DNA of 43,915 bases from Anaerolineaceae bacterium. Its GTDB lineage: Bacteria; Chloroflexota; Anaerolineae; Aggregatilineales; Phototrophicaceae. Positions within the stretch are counted from its first letter, which is position 1, and every line of letters starts with the position of its first letter. The notes beneath the pieces were generated by a model that was given only the letters and a program-made list of their open reading frames with translations, ran no database searches and had not been told where the DNA came from. This document shows positions 17,827 to 31,553 of this stretch, in pieces. Both the position numbers and the translations under genes were made by a program. Location: contig REDR01000034.1 of the NCBI GenBank assembly GCA_007693385.1, positions 1 through 43,915 of the forward strand. Reading direction: 5' to 3'.

Positions 17827-18564
17827 TTAAAAGACGGGCGTCCGTAAGATGAAATAAGACACGATGACCACCGTGCCATTGTTGGCGGCGTGTAGGGCGG
17901 TAGCGTTCCAGATTGAGCCGCTATAAGTGTAGACCACCGCGCACAGCACGCCCGCCAGCGTCAGCGATAGCCACGACACCGCCGAGAAATGCACCGCGCC
18001 GAACACCGCCGAACTGATGAGCAGTCCCAGCCATAGATTGGTGCGCGTGCCGATCCACTGGTACAGCATCCCCCTGAAGAAGATTTCCTCCGCAAACGGG
18101 ACGATCAACGCGGTGCCGACGAACGCCAGCAGGAAATCCGCAACCGGCACGGAGTCGAATACCGGCTCGCCGCCGGTCACGTCTACCGGCATATCCAGCA
18201 GAGCGCCGATAGCTGAGGTCAGCGTCAAGCTGATCGGCACGAAGCACACACCGAGCACAACTGAGAGCGCCAGCCATGACGCCGACGTGCGCTGTAAACC
18301 AACCGCCCGCCAGCCATACGGATGACGGCGCACGCCGAGCCAGAACACACTGCCGCCGAACGCGACCAGCGAGACCAGCGCCGCGCCCATCATGAACACG
18401 CCTTGGTCGGCGGTGTCGAAGCGGGCGTTCTCGATGTCGAGCGCGGCATTCGGCCATAGCGCGATCAGCGCGATGACGCCGAAGATGAAAATGCCGCACC
18501 CCGCCAGCGAGATCGCGGCGGCCTGATCGTCATTCCAGACCGGCTTTTTGCCCATACTCATCAT
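17827..18564 (-). CDS. CPBP-family intramembrane glutamic protease
   Basis: A polytopic membrane protein of the CPBP/CAAX-protease (Abi) family, with about seven hydrophobic segments. The catalytic motifs are complete: Glu159-Glu160 with Arg164 in FAEEIFFRG, His192 in GAVHFSAVS, and His225 with Asn228/229 in LHAANNG. Family members cleave within the membrane or process prenylated or bacteriocin-like substrates; the substrate here is unknown. Its ATG overlaps the stop of the upstream TolB-like gene in ATGA (18564-18561), so the two are translationally coupled, and the envelope protein may be a partner. A second, more divergent CPBP protein lies at 23216. Confidence 0.88.
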   Translation of the reverse strand: MMSMGKKPVWNDDQAAAISLAGCGIFIFGVIALIALWPNAALDIENARFDTADQGVFMMGAALVSLVAFGGSVFWLGVRRHPYGWRAVGLQRTSASWLALSVVLGVCFVPISLTLTSAIGALLDMPVDVTGGEPVFDSVPVADFLLAFVGTALIVPFAEEIFFRGMLYQWIGTRTNLWLGLLISSAVFGAVHFSAVSWLSLTLAGVLCAVVYTYSGSIWNATALHAANNGTVVIVSYFILRTPVF

Positions 18565-20018
18565 GACGGGCCGACCCAGCCGATCAGCGACATCTGCCCG
18601 CGCAGATTCAGCGTCAGGTTGACGGCGGATAGCCCATCGCGTGAGCCGACGTAAATATCGCGGCGGCCGTCTACCGCGCTACGGTCTTGACTGATGCCGG
18701 TGAAGGCGATGCGGCTATCATCCGGCGCGAAGCGTGGCGCACAGACGTTTGTCGGGCGGTTGAAGTTGCTGATGACCGCGTAATTCTCATTGAGTACACG
18801 AAGCGAACTGGGACATTGCCCGCTCGTCCCGCCCAGCGCTAGCCGATCCCCTGCCGCCGACCAGTCGGCATCCATCGCGTAGCGCGAGAACGAGACAGCC
18901 GTCACCGTGTTGATGCGCCCGCCGTCGCGCCCGAATATCACGATCTCCGTCGTGTTGGTCGCTTCGTCAACCACCTGCGCCGCCACTTTCGCGCCGTCCG
19001 GCGTCCAGCGTTCCGCCAGATACAGCGTCGCGTCGCTGTCGTTCAGGCGTACCGGCTCGGCCTGCATGGTGTTCATATCGCCCAGCCAGAGCGTGCGCGA
19101 CGGGTCGAAGATGTCGAATGAATCGCCCGCCGTGAATGCCAGCGTGGAGTCGTCCAACCAGTACGGCGGCTCGAACGTCTCTTCCTGACTGATGCGACGG
19201 GTCGCGCCGGTTTCCATATTGAGGACGTACACATGCCCGCCGGTGAGCGCCGGTTGCTCGTTGTGGTCGCAGGCGTCCGCATCGCCGGGCACCCATGAAG
19301 GGCAGGTCACGCGATCACTGACGAACGCCAGCCAGCGACCATCCGGCGACCATGCCGGCCAGAAATTATTGGAGTCGTTGATGACCAGCCCGCCCCACAC
19401 GCTACGATCCAGATTGAACTCGAAAATATCGGCGCTGTAGCCGGTCTCCCACACCATCGCCATCCGGCGGCCATCCGGCGACCATGTGGGCGATTGCGAC
19501 AGGCCGCGCACGTTCAACGAACTCTCGTTGATGACCCGCGCCCCGAAGCCGGAGCCGACATCGACCAGCCACAGGCCGCGCTCGTCGCTTCCGGCGCGGT
19601 CATTCAGCAGGTAGGCCACCGTGTTACCCAATGGCGACACGAAAACCCGTTCCAGCGTCCCCAGTGAAAACTCGATGATGGGGTATAGGTTATTGGCATT
19701 GTTGGGATCGACGTAGTAAAGCACGGTCAGATCGCTGGTTGGTTCGGCGGTGGCGAGACTGGTCGTGTCCGAGTCGTTGGTGTTGATGAAGGCGACATGC
19801 GGGCGCGTCAAGCCATTACGCACCGCCGCCGGAATTTCGTAGTCGCGCCACATGCTGAACTCGTAGCGCGTTACCGGCGCGGGTGTGCTGGGCGGCGCGG
19901 GCGCATCTTGCGCGGCGGCTTCCTGCGCGGCTGGCGTGGAGAACGTGGCCGCGCCGACGATCAATAACAGCGCGAAGTAGACTGCCAGACTGATGAGAAA
20001 CAAATATCGCTTGAACAT
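18561..20018 (-). CDS. Membrane-anchored TolB-like beta-propeller protein
   Basis: An exported protein with an N-terminal signal anchor (MFKRYLFLISLAVYFALLLI) and a Pro/Ala-rich linker. These are followed by repeated PD40/TolB-type blades: SPTWSPDGRRMAMVWE, WPAWSPDGRWLAFVSD, AERWTPDGAKVAAQV, DADWSAAGDRLALGG and APRFAPDDSRIAFTG. The propeller should lie outside the membrane and bind a protein or ligand; no enzymatic motif is seen. Four cysteines in blade loops (around CPSWVPGDADACD, and CPSSLRV with VCAPR) could form disulfides. GTG 20051 is in frame, but ATG 20018, 12 bases after GAGGT, gives a standard signal anchor. It lies between the LysM lipoprotein and CPBP protease genes and is coupled to the latter. 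Confidence 0.85.
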   Translation of the reverse strand: MFKRYLFLISLAVYFALLLIVGAATFSTPAAQEAAAQDAPAPPSTPAPVTRYEFSMWRDYEIPAAVRNGLTRPHVAFINTNDSDTTSLATAEPTSDLTVLYYVDPNNANNLYPIIEFSLGTLERVFVSPLGNTVAYLLNDRAGSDERGLWLVDVGSGFGARVINESSLNVRGLSQSPTWSPDGRRMAMVWETGYSADIFEFNLDRSVWGGLVINDSNNFWPAWSPDGRWLAFVSDRVTCPSWVPGDADACDHNEQPALTGGHVYVLNMETGATRRISQEETFEPPYWLDDSTLAFTAGDSFDIFDPSRTLWLGDMNTMQAEPVRLNDSDATLYLAERWTPDGAKVAAQVVDEATNTTEIVIFGRDGGRINTVTAVSFSRYAMDADWSAAGDRLALGGTSGQCPSSLRVLNENYAVISNFNRPTNVCAPRFAPDDSRIAFTGISQDRSAVDGRRDIYVGSRDGLSAVNLTLNLRGQMSLIGWVGPS

Positions 20019-20111
20019 CACAGGTTGATTGACCTCACAAACATAATACACGGATCGCTCACGGTTGGGCGCTATCTTACCATATCGACGCGGCGCTGGC
20101 GTTAGCCAGCG

Positions 20112-21152
20112 CTACTGCGTGACGGTGATCGTCTGGGAATAGGTGGCTTGTGTGCCATCGGCGGCGGTGACAAGTAGCTCATAAGTGATGCTAGCAGTTG
20201 GACATACCGACTGTGAGCCGCCCGACGGGACGTTCTGCCCGTCCAGACTGACGGAAGCCGCGCCGCTTGTCGTCCATGACAGCGTGACGCAATCGCCCGC
20301 GACGATGACATCGCGCTCCGCCGTGAATGTCACCTCTCCGGCGCGAACATTCGGTGTGATGGTTGGTGCGGTGGGGGCGGCGCCGGTGGCGGGCAAGCGG
20401 ATTTCCTGCCCGACGTTGAGCTGGTCGGGATTGGTGATGCAATTGGCGGCGATGATCTCCGCCACGCTCAAATCATACTGTAGCGCGATGCGCGTCAGGG
20501 TATCGCCCGCGCTGACGGTGTAGACCTGCGTCCAGTCTGGCGGCGTCTCGCATGTCGCGTTGCCTGCATCGGTTGGCAGGATGAACGGCGCGTCGGATGG
20601 CTGTATCGGCGCGGCCTGAATGCTGTTGTCGGGTGGCGATGTTGGCGAGATGATCGCGGTGGGTGCGGGGACGGATGTCGCGCCGACGGTCTGCCGTTGG
20701 TCAAGCGGGCGCGGCAGATTGCTAATCGGCAGATTGAGCAGGAGGTCACGCGGGGCGGCGGTTGGCTCGGCGGGTGCGCCCACCGTGACCAGTGCCGGAC
20801 TCGCGCTCAGCCGTACCGCATACGCCGGACGGATCAGGCGCGTCACGCCCTCAGCCATGACCGACGCCACGCCATCCAGCGCGATGACCTGCATCTGTGT
20901 GTCGCTATACGTCCAGTAGATCGTTGAGTCGAATAGCACGGTGGCCGTCTCGGTCTGGATCGTCACCTGTGCCGATTCCGCTTGTAGCAGGACGCCCGCA
21001 GAGGTAGGGATGCAGGCTAGCGTCACCGATGTGTGATCGGCGATCTGCTGGCAGGTCAGCGCGTTGATGAATTCGCCGGATGTGGCGCGATTTTGCACGA
21101 GGCATCCACTCGCCATCAGCAGAACAATCAACAGGAAAAGATACCGTCCCAT
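20112..21152 (-). CDS. LysM-domain lipoprotein with Ig-like C-terminal domain
   Basis: The N-terminus MGRYLFLLIVLLMASGC is a lipoprotein signal with Cys17 as the lipidation site. Residues 30-125 are a beta-rich domain with two cysteines (34 and 47). A Pro/Ala/Thr-rich linker spans about 126-200. A LysM domain (about 210-254, VYTVSAGDTLTRIALQYDLS) should bind glycan such as peptidoglycan. An Ig-like domain (about 274-345, FTAERDVIVAGDCVTLSWTT) ends the protein, with Cys288 and Cys317 likely paired. It is probably an outside-facing envelope protein linking membrane and wall. AGGGGA overlaps the tatC stop, 10 bases before the ATG, so it belongs to the tat operon and may be co-expressed with it. 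Confidence 0.87.
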   Translation of the reverse strand: MGRYLFLLIVLLMASGCLVQNRATSGEFINALTCQQIADHTSVTLACIPTSAGVLLQAESAQVTIQTETATVLFDSTIYWTYSDTQMQVIALDGVASVMAEGVTRLIRPAYAVRLSASPALVTVGAPAEPTAAPRDLLLNLPISNLPRPLDQRQTVGATSVPAPTAIISPTSPPDNSIQAAPIQPSDAPFILPTDAGNATCETPPDWTQVYTVSAGDTLTRIALQYDLSVAEIIAANCITNPDQLNVGQEIRLPATGAAPTAPTITPNVRAGEVTFTAERDVIVAGDCVTLSWTTSGAASVSLDGQNVPSGGSQSVCPTASITYELLVTAADGTQATYSQTITVTQ

Positions 21153-23127: not shown

Positions 23128-23152
23128 GGGCGCAATGCATTGCCCCCCTACG
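23128..23152. repeat. Palindromic intergenic repeat, copy 2
   Basis: GGGCGCAATGCATTGCCCCC then CTACG shares its plan with copy 1 at 13704-13729: GGGCG, a short variable palindrome (here CAATGCATTG), a C-rich arm, and CTACG. Both copies are also preceded 15-20 bases upstream by a GCGC-C/G-GGA stretch. It lies in the 189-base gap between divergent nusB and the second CPBP gene, which otherwise shows nothing recognisable. Confidence 0.55.
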
Positions 23153-23215
23153 GAAAATCAGTATGAACTGCGTGAGTCTTCATGCTATCTTAACCGGAAA
23201 GCGAACGGATTTTTG

Positions 23216-24316
23216 ATGGACTTCTTACTGTTATATGTGCTGGTTATCGGCTACATCGGCGCGACGATCTATCAGGCGAATCGGGCGGAGCGGATGCGCC
23301 GCGTCCTTGAACGCGATGATGCGCTGATGGACGACGGCGAACGCGCTATCGGGCGCGTCAATTATGGTAAGCAGGCCAACGCCGTTCGCAATTTGCTGTA
23401 TGCCGCCGCCGTGATGATGGCGATGTTCGCGCCGTTGATGGTCTTCGCTTATCTGGAATCCGAAGAACAGGCCGACGAGTTGATCCGCGTCGGCACGCTA
23501 GACACCGCTCTCGGCGTCGGTATCGCGCTGTTTTGTGCGGCGGCGGCGGTGCTGGTCATCACATCAGGCGCGGTGCGGGAACGTCTGGCGGCGCTGATCG
23601 GTTCAGCAGGCGATTATGACACGCGCTCGACGGTGCATACAACCGCCATCGTGTTGACTCTGCTGATGCTGACCGGCCAGATCGTGCAATTTCTGGCGGG
23701 CGGCGGGGCGGACGGCTTGACGCAGACCATCGAACAGGAGGGCGTCAGCACGGAGGGCATCGTCTTGCAGATGTTCTTGCAGGTGGCGGTGGCGTTTCTC
23801 GGCGTCGGCTTCGCTATCCGGCGCGGTGGCGCGGCGGCACTGGAACGGCTCGGCCTGCGCCAGCCGACCACAACCGACTTGCGTTATGGGGTGGGCGTCG
23901 GCTTCGGCTTGCTCGGTCTGCTGTACGTGTTCGGCCTGCTGATGCTGATTGTGCAGACGCTAGCTGGCGGCTCGCTGGAAGAAGCCAATGCCGCCAACAC
24001 CGCGCTGACCCGTGCCTTCGCCACTATTCCGCTTGCCCTGCTAATCTCGGCCTGTGCCGCCATCGGTGAGGAAATCCTGTTTCGTGGCGCGTTACAGCCG
24101 ATCTTCGGTAATGTGCTGGTCAGTATCGTGTTCGCCTTGCTCCACACGCAGGCGCTATTTTCCATCGGCATCGTCTTTCTGTTCGCGGTGTCGATGATTC
24201 TCGGCTGGTTGCGGAATCGCGTCGGCACAACCGCCGCCATCATCGCGCATTTCGTCTATAATTTCGTGCAATTGTTGCTGGCAATCGCCGTCATCGAAAG
24301 CGGGGCATTAACGTGA
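23216..24316 (+). CDS. CPBP-family intramembrane glutamic protease
   Basis: A 366-aa polytopic membrane protein. The N-terminal half has an initial helix, a charged cytoplasmic stretch (RAERMRRVLERDDALMDD) and three or four further helices. The C-terminal half is the CPBP core, with Glu285-Glu286 and Arg290 in GEEILFRG, His310 in FALLHTQ, and His345 with Asn349 in HFVYNFVQ, so the active site is complete. ATG 23216 starts with a proper membrane helix; upstream in-frame codons read through non-membrane sequence and the repeat. Its stop overlaps the GTG start of the next gene, a surface protein with a dead metallopeptidase-like domain. That coupling suggests the two act together at the membrane; the substrate is unknown. 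Confidence 0.87.
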   Translation: MDFLLLYVLVIGYIGATIYQANRAERMRRVLERDDALMDDGERAIGRVNYGKQANAVRNLLYAAAVMMAMFAPLMVFAYLESEEQADELIRVGTLDTALGVGIALFCAAAAVLVITSGAVRERLAALIGSAGDYDTRSTVHTTAIVLTLLMLTGQIVQFLAGGGADGLTQTIEQEGVSTEGIVLQMFLQVAVAFLGVGFAIRRGGAAALERLGLRQPTTTDLRYGVGVGFGLLGLLYVFGLLMLIVQTLAGGSLEEANAANTALTRAFATIPLALLISACAAIGEEILFRGALQPIFGNVLVSIVFALLHTQALFSIGIVFLFAVSMILGWLRNRVGTTAAIIAHFVYNFVQLLLAIAVIESGALT

Positions 24317-26019
24317 AGCAACTGACTCTCATCATCGCCATCTTGTTATTGTGGTCGTCGGTCAGCGCCGACTCACTCCGCGCTCAGATAGCGGACGACC
24401 CGACGCCGACGCCGGAAATCGACTTCGACCCTGACGCCGAATCGGAGCTAGAATTAGAACTTGAACCAGAGCCAGAACCGGAGACAGAGGTCGAAACGTC
24501 CGCACCGGTACAGGCCACGCCCACCGATTTACCCGATGTCGCGGACTTCATCATCAATTGGGATGATGATGTGCTGTATCCGGCCGGGCTATTCTTCAGC
24601 CTGTCGATCAATGCGCCACTCGATGAGGTGGCGAACATCACATTGACGCTGAACATCGAAGGCGAAACCGCGCCGCGCAATATCGGCTTTGCCGCCATCC
24701 GCGAGGCCGTCACCGATGATGTGCCCGCCACGCGCATCGCGCTGACGTGGGCGACTCCGCCGGATAATCCGCCGCCTTTTCAGGCGTTGATTGACTATGT
24801 GTGGCGCGTCACATTGAGCGACGGCAGGCAGGGCGAAGTGCCCGGCACGTTGTCGTTCAAAGAGGCGGGGCGGGCGTGGGTGATCGACGCAGACGACGAA
24901 GGGCGCGTCAATTTGATTTACGCTGAGGGCACATCCGACGCTTTGCGCTCCCGCGTGGATGCGCTGTATGCGTTGCTGGCGGCGCGGCTTGAGGTCGAAC
25001 CGGCGCTATCATTGGCGCTGAATCCGGCGAACGCGCCGATTGACCCGTGCGAGCGCGTTGACCAGATCATCGGGGCGCGTACCGGCCAGCGTGTCGCCTG
25101 TGACGACGACGCGCAAATCGGGCGGGTGATGATGGCACGGCTGGGCTATGACATCATCGACGCGCCGACCAACGCACAGGCCATCAGCCAGACGATTGAC
25201 GCGGTGGCCTCTGCTTTCCACGCGCCGCGATGGGACGGGGGAGCGCTCCCCGATTGGTTCACGCGGGGACTGTTCGCGCTGTATCGTGCGTCGGATCGCT
25301 TCACGGATTTACAGCGCGTCCGCGTCGCGGAGCGCACCGCCACGCAATACGACATGGACGCGATGCAGACCGCCATCGACGCGATAACGGACGGCGGGCT
25401 GTGGACATCACAGGCGATCATGATGACGCTGTTTGTAGCCGACGCTTACGGGCTGGATGCGCTGTACGCACTGGCCGATGAGCCGTTCCTGCCGGATGAG
25501 CCATTTGAGGCGCGTTATGCGCGGTTGACCGGCGATGCGCTCTCGCGTCTGATACCGGCTATGAATAACTGGCTGTATCTCGGGCGGGTGCTGGATGTGG
25601 TGCGCTTCGACCCGTACCAGACCGAGCCGACCCCGACGCCGACCATCACATTGACGGCCACCGCTTTTCCGGCGACGGCTACCTTCACGCCGACCCACAC
25701 GCCGACGGCGACGGCTACATTCACCGCCACGCCGTCGCCCACTGTCACCGGTACGCTGAGCGCGACGCCGTTACCCTCATCGACGCCGACCAATACACCG
25801 TTACCGCCACCGCCGACGATCACGCCGCTACCGCCGGATTTCCAGTTTCCCACCGTCCCGCCACCCGCACAGCCGGAAATCACGGTGACGCCGACCATCG
25901 CCACGCCGCCGCCCGCCACTGATGACATCAGCGCGGAGGATTGGGCATTGCTGGTATTGACGGCGCTGGTTATCCTGTCGGCAGGTGCGGGCATCATGAT
26001 GATGTTGCGGCGACGCTAG
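24313..26019 (+). CDS. Surface protein with pseudo-metallopeptidase domain and Thr/Pro stalk
   Basis: A 568-aa exported protein. In order: signal peptide (about 1-20); an acidic Glu/Pro repeat (SELELELEPEPEPETEVE); a beta-rich domain (about 75-195); a helical domain (about 205-430) that resembles MA-clan (gluzincin) peptidase-MA-like domains; a Thr/Pro-rich stalk (about 435-540); and a C-terminal membrane helix ending in RRR. In active relatives a HExxH helix precedes a W-L-x-E-G-L motif. Here the matching positions read SQTID (292-296) and WFTRGL (315-320), so both His, the catalytic Glu and the third ligand appear lost. GTG 24313 overlaps the CPBP stop. Probable role: a non-catalytic surface binding protein. 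Family assignment rests on motif context and is moderate. Confidence 0.72.
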   Translation: MKQLTLIIAILLLWSSVSADSLRAQIADDPTPTPEIDFDPDAESELELELEPEPEPETEVETSAPVQATPTDLPDVADFIINWDDDVLYPAGLFFSLSINAPLDEVANITLTLNIEGETAPRNIGFAAIREAVTDDVPATRIALTWATPPDNPPPFQALIDYVWRVTLSDGRQGEVPGTLSFKEAGRAWVIDADDEGRVNLIYAEGTSDALRSRVDALYALLAARLEVEPALSLALNPANAPIDPCERVDQIIGARTGQRVACDDDAQIGRVMMARLGYDIIDAPTNAQAISQTIDAVASAFHAPRWDGGALPDWFTRGLFALYRASDRFTDLQRVRVAERTATQYDMDAMQTAIDAITDGGLWTSQAIMMTLFVADAYGLDALYALADEPFLPDEPFEARYARLTGDALSRLIPAMNNWLYLGRVLDVVRFDPYQTEPTPTPTITLTATAFPATATFTPTHTPTATATFTATPSPTVTGTLSATPLPSSTPTNTPLPPPPTITPLPPDFQFPTVPPPAQPEITVTPTIATPPPATDDISAEDWALLVLTALVILSAGAGIMMMLRRR

Positions 26020-30098: not shown

Positions 30099-31553
30099 AT
30101 GAGTGCAAAAAGTATAAAGCATTTTATCTTGGGGCTGATGTTGCTGGCGGTGGCCGCCATGCCCTTGACGGTGGCCGCGCAGGACTGCCCCGACGGTGTG
30201 ACCGGCGACGACTGTGCGTTGTTGACGGCGGCCACACAGGGCGCGGCGGGCGCGGAATCGCTGGAATTTGATTTTGACATCGACATCGAGATCGGGCTGG
30301 GTTTCTTCGGCGTTAACATCAACGTTAACGGTGGCAACGGCATCCTGTTGATGGACGGCGCGGGCAACATCACCGCCGCCCAGTTTGATATGCCGCTTGT
30401 TGATCTGGATTTGATGTTCTTCGGTCAGGCAGGCGCGGCGTCGTTCGTGCTGGTTGACGATGTCGCGTACTTCGGCATGGGCGATAGCCTCGACGCGCTG
30501 ACATGGCGTGACCTACCGCTAGAGCAGGTCGATAATCCGGTCTTCACGTTCGATCAACTGTCGATCTACGGCGGGATCGGCGACGCCGCCCTGACCGAAC
30601 TCGCGCCGATGGCGTCGGCTGAGTGGACTGTCGCCCCGGCTAGTACCTCACGCGGCGACGCCGCCACCGAGTTCGCTAGCGTCGTGGAAAACATGAACCT
30701 CACCGAAGTCGCGCAGGACAGCGGCGCGGCTGATCTCATCGGCGGCCTGCTGGATGGCATGGACGGTATCGCCAACATCACCACTCAAATTTTCGTTGAT
30801 CCGGCTAGCGGCCAGTTCGTCGAACTCGCCAGCTTCATCAACGTGACGATGGGTGGCATGATGGGCGATATGGGCGATATGGGCGACGATGAAGCCGATC
30901 CGTTCGCGGATATGTTCGCTGATCTATTCGGCGATATGGGCGCGACCATCGAAACCAGCATCTACTTCACCGGCGTCAATACCGGCGTCAGCGTTTCCGC
31001 GCCGACCAGCGAAGAAGCGGTGACCGACATCCCATCGGGGATGCGTGATGCCGCCGCCAACGGCAACGTCGTCGCGTTCATGGCTGAATACTTCACCGAT
31101 TCGCTCGATGATGTGATGGCCGGTGGCGCGGATGATCTGTTCGGCGGTATGTTCGGCATGGATGACGACATGGGCGATATGTTCGGCGATTTCGGCTTCG
31201 GTGGTGATATGTACACCGGTCGTTGTTCGGATCGCGGCGAGATAGAGGCGGGCACGATTGACTTCGGTCAGTCGCTGACCGGCAACCTGACCGCCGGTCA
31301 AAATGACCTGTGGACGTTCGACGGTAGCGCCGGTCAGATGGTCACTATCGCGCAGGATAGCTCCGAGATTGACGCTTATCTGGAACTGCTCGGCCCGGAT
31401 GGGCAGGGTATCGCCTCTAATGATGATGGCGGCGTCGGCCTGAACGCGCTGATCGCCAACTTCGAGCTACCGGAAGATGGCACATACACCATCGTCGCCT
31501 GTAGCTTCTGGACGAGCGATGAGGGCGAATATCAGCTCACGCTGAGCGACTAG
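30099..31553 (+). CDS. Exported acidic protein with Met/Asp/Gly-rich repeats and a PPC domain
   Basis: A 484-aa secreted protein. Signal peptide about 1-27 (ILGLMLLAVAAMPLTVAAQ). Residues 28-300 form a beta-rich domain reminiscent of lipoprotein-carrier folds (LolA/LppX-like), but I cannot name it. Two low-complexity stretches interrupt it: MMGDMGDMGDDEADPFADMF near 255-275 and DDDMGDMFGDFGFGGDM near 352-368. The last 95 residues are a bacterial pre-peptidase C-terminal (PPC) domain (SLTGNLTAGQNDLWTFDGSA to the end), usual on secreted proteins. The whole protein is strongly acidic. AGGAGG at 30084-30089 is 9 bases from the ATG. Own promoter, 5' hairpin and strong terminator make it a monocistronic, probably abundant product. 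Confidence 0.85.
   Translation: MSAKSIKHFILGLMLLAVAAMPLTVAAQDCPDGVTGDDCALLTAATQGAAGAESLEFDFDIDIEIGLGFFGVNINVNGGNGILLMDGAGNITAAQFDMPLVDLDLMFFGQAGAASFVLVDDVAYFGMGDSLDALTWRDLPLEQVDNPVFTFDQLSIYGGIGDAALTELAPMASAEWTVAPASTSRGDAATEFASVVENMNLTEVAQDSGAADLIGGLLDGMDGIANITTQIFVDPASGQFVELASFINVTMGGMMGDMGDMGDDEADPFADMFADLFGDMGATIETSIYFTGVNTGVSVSAPTSEEAVTDIPSGMRDAAANGNVVAFMAEYFTDSLDDVMAGGADDLFGGMFGMDDDMGDMFGDFGFGGDMYTGRCSDRGEIEAGTIDFGQSLTGNLTAGQNDLWTFDGSAGQMVTIAQDSSEIDAYLELLGPDGQGIASNDDGGVGLNALIANFELPEDGTYTIVACSFWTSDEGEYQLTLSD

Follow-up and report, generated by a model that had tools for sequence, protein, structure and literature searches.

The window analysed here, a 43,915-nucleotide stretch of DNA from an Anaerolineaceae bacterium, corresponds to contig C128 of a 3.59 Mb genome that is 96.9% complete. 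It carries a gene whose 568-residue product is a stalked surface protein built around a gluzincin-type peptidase domain that has almost certainly lost its catalytic residues, and this gene overlaps that of a CPBP intramembrane protease. Pseudopeptidase homologues without the HExxH motif are referred to below as the dead family. Taxonomic families of the window's order are labelled f1 to f8, with f1 being the window's own family, and genomes, genera and loci carry G-, g- and L-numbers, respectively. The features of the locus are as follows.

23135 to 24316, forward strand: CPBP (Rce1-like) intramembrane protease gene, 393 residues, with EExxxR, FxxxH and HxxxN intact (PF02517, E 1.1e-11)
24313 to 24316, forward strand: GTGA overlap of 4 bases between the CPBP stop and the dead-gene start (sequence)
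24313 to 26019, forward strand: dead gluzincin (pseudopeptidase) gene, 568 residues, GTG start (open reading frame, motif alignment, family-wide loss)
24313 to 24387, forward strand: signal peptide, about residues 1-25, ending in SLRAQ (sequence; the '..AQ' site recurs in homologues, and cleavage there is presumed)
24547 to 24864, forward strand: Ig/FnIII-like beta domain, about residues 79-184 (AlphaFold strands, structural matches)
24871 to 25605, forward strand: gluzincin-fold domain without catalytic residues, about residues 187-431 (structural matches to M30, M9 and M1; hhalign)
25048 to 25101, forward strand: C246 (25048-25050) and C263 (25099-25101), the invariant cysteines of the dead family (alignment; probable disulphide)
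25186 to 25200, forward strand: SQTID at the HExxH position, residues 292-296 (hhalign to two intact groups)
25255 to 25272, forward strand: WFTRGL at the WLxEGL position, residues 315-320, with Arg318 at the third-ligand position (profile alignment, residue counts)
25624 to 25930, forward strand: Thr/Pro-rich stalk, about residues 438-539 (sequence; stalks aligned in homologues)
25942 to 26016, forward strand: C-terminal hydrophobic segment and RRR, a membrane anchor with a positive cytoplasmic end (sequence; hydropathy script on homologues)

The protein is ordered as signal peptide, acidic linker, folded region, Thr/Pro stalk, hydrophobic C-terminal helix and RRR. Stalk, hydrophobic segment and RRR are legible directly in the sequence. 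The product, taken for a Thr/Pro-stalked surface protein in an original prediction made from the letters alone, is confirmed as secreted, Thr/Pro-stalked and C-terminally anchored. The overlap with an intact intramembrane protease gene, also part of that prediction, was recovered as the 4-base GTGA, and the EExxxR, FxxxH and HxxxN motifs, which are the catalytic motifs of CPBP/Rce1-like proteases, are complete in the upstream protein. Across the aligned CPBP orthologues encoded beside dead genes, E312, E313, R317, H337 and H372 were invariant (27 of 27) and N376 was retained in at least 90%. For the window's dead protein, Pfam and NCBIfam gave no family match above cut-off, and none in Pfam to Peptidase_MA_2 (PF13485).

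Fold and vacated catalytic site

The structure of residues 56-440 was predicted with AlphaFold using a 29-row family alignment (29 of 30 rows, the partial L030 being excluded), which gave a model with pLDDT 92.1 and pTM 0.85. Residues 79-184 were modelled as an FnIII/Ig-like sandwich, and model positions 22-129 resemble cytokine-receptor and integrin FnIII domains at Z 6.7-7.2, where a match may reflect no more than a common arrangement. For residues 187-431, the best structural match was lugdulysin of family M30 (Z 9.3, 4.7 A over 202), alongside M9 collagenases (Z 8.1-9.0) and M1 aminopeptidases (Z about 7-8); lugdulysin and the collagenases are, however, active zinc peptidases, and their sequence identity to the window protein is about 8-9%. 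SQTID lies inside a long helix (model 232-252) that is the counterpart of the HELSH-bearing helix (232-253) in the active copy. As a control, a model of the intact sibling from L061 (pLDDT 78.3, six-row alignment) matched collagenases and lugdulysin at Z of about 14-18. A BFVD search returned no convincing match. Two TFIID chains, 7edx_B (Z 7.3) and 6mzc_B (Z 6.9), were also among the structural matches and are taken by us to be TAF2, the TFIID component with an M1-like fold that lacks catalysis. In TAF2 a gluzincin without catalysis has taken on a binding function, but TAF2 is eukaryotic, nuclear and far larger, and it serves here as a working analogy only. The ectodomain is confirmed as an Ig/FnIII-like domain followed by a gluzincin-fold domain, and the originally proposed gluzincin-like helical domain is borne out by profile alignment, by a modelled fold that is gluzincin-like rather than unrelated, and by the M30, M9 and M1 matches.

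Profile comparison with hhalign against an intact Peptidase_MA_2 group placed SQTID on HELSH and WFTRGL on WLEEGL (probability 99.1, E 1.1e-18), and the same motif placement was obtained against a second active group (probability 98.5, E 1.8e-15). These are the very replacements that had been proposed, SQTID (292-296) for HExxH and WFTRGL (315-320) for W-L-x-E-G-L, and with Arg318 as the third-ligand residue both the metal ligands and the catalytic Glu are gone from the window protein. A search for an HExxH elsewhere in its 568 residues found none. Chance resemblance was rejected, since the replaced motifs align column for column with HExxH and WxxEG of both intact groups.

Retention of HExxH at 292-296 was scored in homologues. 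The motif is present in 0 of the 88 dead-family members read, in 44 of 44 non-family MA relatives above 60 bits at the fetched loci, and, together with W-x-x-E-G, in 12 of 12 relatives from outside the order, which had been selected on score, without regard to motif. Partial-site intermediates at the loci read were rejected on the same 44 of 44 count. Within the dead family, the first-ligand His is kept in none of the 88 members, the Glu in 14, the second His in 2, the third-ligand Glu in 17, and a Tyr, whose catalytic role is a reading of the alignment, in 3. Canonical residues at these five positions number none in 59 members, one in 23, two in 5 and three in 1. Every aligned member has C246 (87 of 87) and C263 (86 of 86), and the two cysteines probably form a disulphide; 29 of the 44 intact relatives have no Cys beyond residue 40 of the frame. 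G380 is found in all 88 members, W315, P313, W420, W307, W364 and Q367 are near-invariant, and positions 292, 293, 296, 318 and 365 all vary. Selective constraint has shifted away from the metal site.

The window protein resembles Peptidase_MA_2, gluzincins of the same bacterial class, in its FnIII-like plus gluzincin layout, its W-x-x-x-G-L and its family's tandem neighbours, and it differs from them in lacking HExxH, the third ligand and the catalytic Glu and in the invariant Cys pair of its family. The PF13485 model matches 17 of 29 dead-family members at E <=0.01, and in a six-frame search places in the dead members of G012, G041 and G047 passed the cut-off. The fold of a catalytic gluzincin is present and its HExxH and third-ligand Glu are absent; with a homologous fold, lost catalytic residues and a gene under constraint, the protein has the properties of a pseudopeptidase. 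That the gluzincin fold and the loss of catalytic residues hold together is nearly certain.

Family distribution and gene neighbourhood

The dead gene was found in 92 of the 154 genomes of the window's order (members of at least about 100 bits, in a set with many incomplete assemblies), distributed as f1 51/98, f2 0/9, f3 16/18, f4 5/5, f5 0/1, f6 2/2, f7 9/11 and f8 9/10. Dead genes were read in 88 of these genomes, the neighbours in G028, G070, G071 and G088 being unfetched. Among 298 genomes drawn across the class, the outside-order places listed with the dead-family search all scored 88 bits or less; whole-frame rescoring brought outside-order relatives up to 138 bits, but active-family models score higher there, and in the searches made the dead family is confined to the order. 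A quick tree, with the root not inferred, was built from 45 dead rows (the window and 44 drawn at random from 84, after length and duplicate filters had left 85 of 88) and 42 of 44 active rows. The dead set forms one side of a single branch with SH-aLRT 100; the window row is long-branched and its position inside the dead clade is unsure.

The ratio of nonsynonymous to synonymous substitution rates (dN/dS) over the domain was 0.09-0.31 in 30 of 36 pairs above 58% identity, the other 6 being saturated, and 0.01-0.18 in six pairs of intact neighbours. Judged by these ratios, the dead family is under purifying selection. The intact neighbours at L067 (7547-8866) and L087 (2642-3961) are 99.5% identical vs about 90% for the adjoining dead copies, for which local recombination or a strong rate difference is possible. 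The dead gene is split into two frames at L062 (7132-8879) and L076 (7810-9890) and has an internal TAA in G077 (C185), which represents recent decay or assembly error.

Of the 49 f1 loci read, 48 have a CPBP gene as the immediate same-strand upstream neighbour of the dead gene (46 scored by script, the window, and L076, where the first piece of the split dead frame abuts CPBP), and the sole exception, L125, stops at a contig edge. Coordinates place CPBP just upstream of the dead gene in G028 and G088 also. In 21 of the 48 CPBP-linked loci a start codon stands precisely at position -4 relative to the CPBP stop, according to a scan of the frame's first 150 codons that gave no candidate start in 7 of the 48 (the L076 frame being split). 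None of the 39 f3-f8 loci has CPBP upstream of the dead gene; 14 CPBP loci were fetched from these families, and an open reading frame scan showed CPBP in 13, none adjoining a dead gene. CPBP orthologues occur in 136 of the 154 genomes of the order and, at E 1e-30, in 89 of the 92 dead-gene genomes, one of the other three having a CPBP fragment, and the nine f2 genomes have neither gene at the thresholds used. This co-occurrence fits coupling and also shared ancestry. The link to CPBP is real but lineage-bound, being confined to f1. The part of the original prediction that coupled the two genes in a two-part surface module finds partial support: in f1 adjacency is almost fixed and the overlap recurrent, but the adjacency does not extend to the sister families, and CPBP survives without the dead gene. 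At L175, L176 (g17), L177, L179 and L180, the dead gene is absent and CPBP is directly beside rlmN, and the dead gene was therefore probably lost from between them. Within g17, the dead gene was found only in G112, and the CPBP of the remaining genomes is lower-scoring.

An intact HExxH MA peptidase is encoded directly upstream of the dead gene in 25 of the 39 f3-f8 loci (f3 12/14; f4 5/5, including the split L062; f6 1/2; f7 0/9; f8 7/9), and in f4 two intact copies stand in tandem ahead of it. At ten loci with neither CPBP nor MA, the upstream genes were M32 (two), M23 (two), tRNA synthetase (two), HAD hydrolase (two), CoA ligase (one) and one with no match. The M32 genes encode carboxypeptidase Taq, a metallopeptidase (f7, L071 4469-6100 and L099 5377-6894), and the M23 peptidase genes, likewise directly upstream, are those of f7 genus g30 (L155 5317-6195 and L078 7927-8829). 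Downstream of the dead gene, rlmN was found in 42 of the 48 f1 loci besides the window (by Pfam identification in four), and with rlmN downstream at most loci the locus is therefore probably the same one across families. Outside the order, at L151, an intact TM-tailed (transmembrane-tailed) MA peptidase directly precedes rlmN, which points to the ancestral state. The window's genome has rlmN on another contig (C71), with CPBP still attached to the dead gene. No active MA sibling was recovered in that genome by PF13485 (0 matches at E 0.001), and the A2 profile gave one 16-bit place (an A3-type profile was not run there). PF13485 searches of 37 f1 genomes gave a single place over cut-off outside the dead family, in G020 (C141, sequence unread), and no second, non-dead match was found in f1 genomes at E 1e-8, a threshold that weakly matching types could escape.

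A hydropathy script recorded a TM-like tail in 81 of 88 dead copies; the seven without comprise four at contig ends, one with an internal stop, and two (L097, L108) ending before the stalk. Such a tail was recorded in 1 of 32 in-order intact copies read vs 9 of 12 outside-order intact copies, and the dead copies have therefore kept an anchor that their intact neighbours lost. The remaining two in-order intact copies beyond those at dead-gene loci (L159) are also without a tail. No Cys is present in the window's tail, and in f1 only one tail of 49 (L127) has a Cys, inside the hydrophobic segment. Cys-bearing dead tails were found in 17 of the 39 f3-f8 members, namely L061, L062, L063, L064 and L089 (f4), L066 (f6), L071, L099, L100 and L135 (f7), and L065, L067, L087, L113, L115, L126 and L129 (f8). 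The Cys mostly follows a Gly-rich stretch and precedes the TM segment and Arg/Lys end (for example GGGICP, SGGLCG, NPCG), an arrangement like that of sorting tails, and NCBIfam sorting-tail models gave no match to six of these Cys-tailed proteins.

Interpretation and alternatives

The overall explanation favoured here, at a probability of roughly 0.6, is that the gene encodes a pseudopeptidase anchored at the cell surface, where it binds substrates or partner proteases. The dead protein would be exported via its signal peptide and held on the Thr/Pro stalk by the C-terminal membrane helix. Its peptidase-like domain, a Peptidase_MA_2 gluzincin of collagenase/lugdulysin-like type, has neither the metal site nor the catalytic Glu any longer. 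This loss most likely happened a single time, in an ancestor shared by several of the order's families, and the protein would since have been retained to bind peptides or partner proteases at the membrane surface without cutting them. A non-catalytic binding role is highly probable given a conserved, anchored peptidase fold without catalysis. Its partners in the sister families would be the MA peptidases of the neighbouring upstream genes, which are intact and mostly lack an anchor; in f1, these are gone from the locus, and the dead gene instead overlaps the CPBP membrane protease gene. Physical partnership with a protease is what we infer, and direct partnership with the neighbouring one is quite possible, if short of an even chance. 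A more specific scheme would split catalysis and membrane anchoring between duplicated surface peptidases, with the dead stalked copy acting as a surface dock or substrate presenter for soluble active siblings and being re-wired in f1 to the unrelated, intact CPBP. This scheme is unlikely; if true, one conserved pseudopeptidase would have exchanged its catalytic partner.

Several observations weigh against the binding explanation or its parts. Foldseek TM-scores against the PDB were low (best 0.35), with glycoside hydrolases intermixed among M1 peptidases at the top, and the Z of 9.3 is only modestly above the 7-8 often reached by models that match nothing clearly. The dead protein diverges rapidly, aligned members being 20-35% identical to the window protein, and its dN/dS is mostly above that of intact g31 neighbours, unlike a tightly fitted enzyme subunit. 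Neither CPBP nor MA is directly upstream in f7 (9 of 9 loci read) or at five other f3, f6 and f8 loci, and 5 of the 6 examined f1 loci without the dead gene have CPBP immediately next to rlmN. The tail contrast is not a random sample either, as 30 of the 32 in-order intact copies come from dead-gene loci.

The adjacency in f1 may reflect inheritance, CPBP having moved beside rlmN once in the f1 ancestor, with stable gene order and no joint function thereafter. This account is possible though somewhat doubtful. It agrees with those five f1 loci, with the nearly order-wide presence of CPBP and with the linkage of rlmN, which is unlikely to share function and is almost as stable; it agrees less well with the window's genome, where the rlmN link is broken but the CPBP link and overlap remain, and with the co-occurrence of the two genes and their joint absence from f2. 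Alternatively, CPBP may cleave the C-terminal membrane segment of the dead protein, freeing or re-anchoring the ectodomain, as myxosortase acts on MYXO-CTERM proteins. The f1 adjacency is fixed and the NTGA overlap recurrent, and the pair is like MrtX and its substrates in joining a CPBP protease to an anchored surface protein that ends in a TM segment and Arg (PMC11980579). The upstream protein has the CPBP/Rce1-like motifs, but its matches to the NCBIfam models for myxosortase-core (29.3 bits, cut-off 100) and MrtS (28.2 bits, cut-off 130) are weak and far below cut-off. According to the same source, myxosortase cleavage depends on the Cys signature of the tail; in the window protein no Cys precedes the TM segment, and the Cys-bearing tails sit in sister families, where no CPBP adjoins the dead gene. 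With CPBP also persisting in f1 genomes that lack the dead gene, such cleavage is rather unlikely.

A decaying peptidase pseudogene whose loss is still incomplete would account for the fast divergence, the failure to find the dead gene in 47 of 98 f1 genomes, the split frames at L062 and L076, the internal stop in G077 and the copies at L097 and L108 that end before the stalk. Decay is nevertheless hardly credible, because dN/dS is well below 1 and the cysteines and tryptophans are conserved; in addition, the domain frame is open in most of the 88 members, and signal, stalk and anchor recur. The new invariant or near-invariant C246, C263, W307, W364 and Q367 could point to an enzymatic activity gained on the old fold and carried out by conserved residues away from the metal site, but no conserved cluster of acid, His or Ser is present at the old site, where positions 292, 293, 296, 318 and 365 vary, and the two cysteines look structural; this alternative is very improbable.

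Pseudopeptidases are already a known kind, best known from eukaryotes, and the present clade is one whose window protein has no Pfam or NCBIfam match above cut-off. A literature search returned nothing on the dead-peptidase clade or its CPBP pairing among the titles and abstracts found. In the available text of the review PMC11266112, the word stem 'bacteri' occurs twice, both times in the reference list. The clade described here is deep, conserved and bacterial, with intact siblings adjacent in sister lineages and the intact state outside the order, and this makes testable both the role of a dead peptidase at the cell surface and its ability to change protease partners. CPBP proteases are described as largely unexplored in prokaryotes (PMC11980579), and the dead protein is a candidate client for a bacterial one.

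Elsewhere in the window, positions 30099-31553 encode a 484-residue protein that appears secreted by eye and ends in a pre-peptidase C-terminal (PPC) domain, and a LysM protein (20112-21152) and a PD40 beta-propeller protein (18561-20051) are encoded near a tatC gene.

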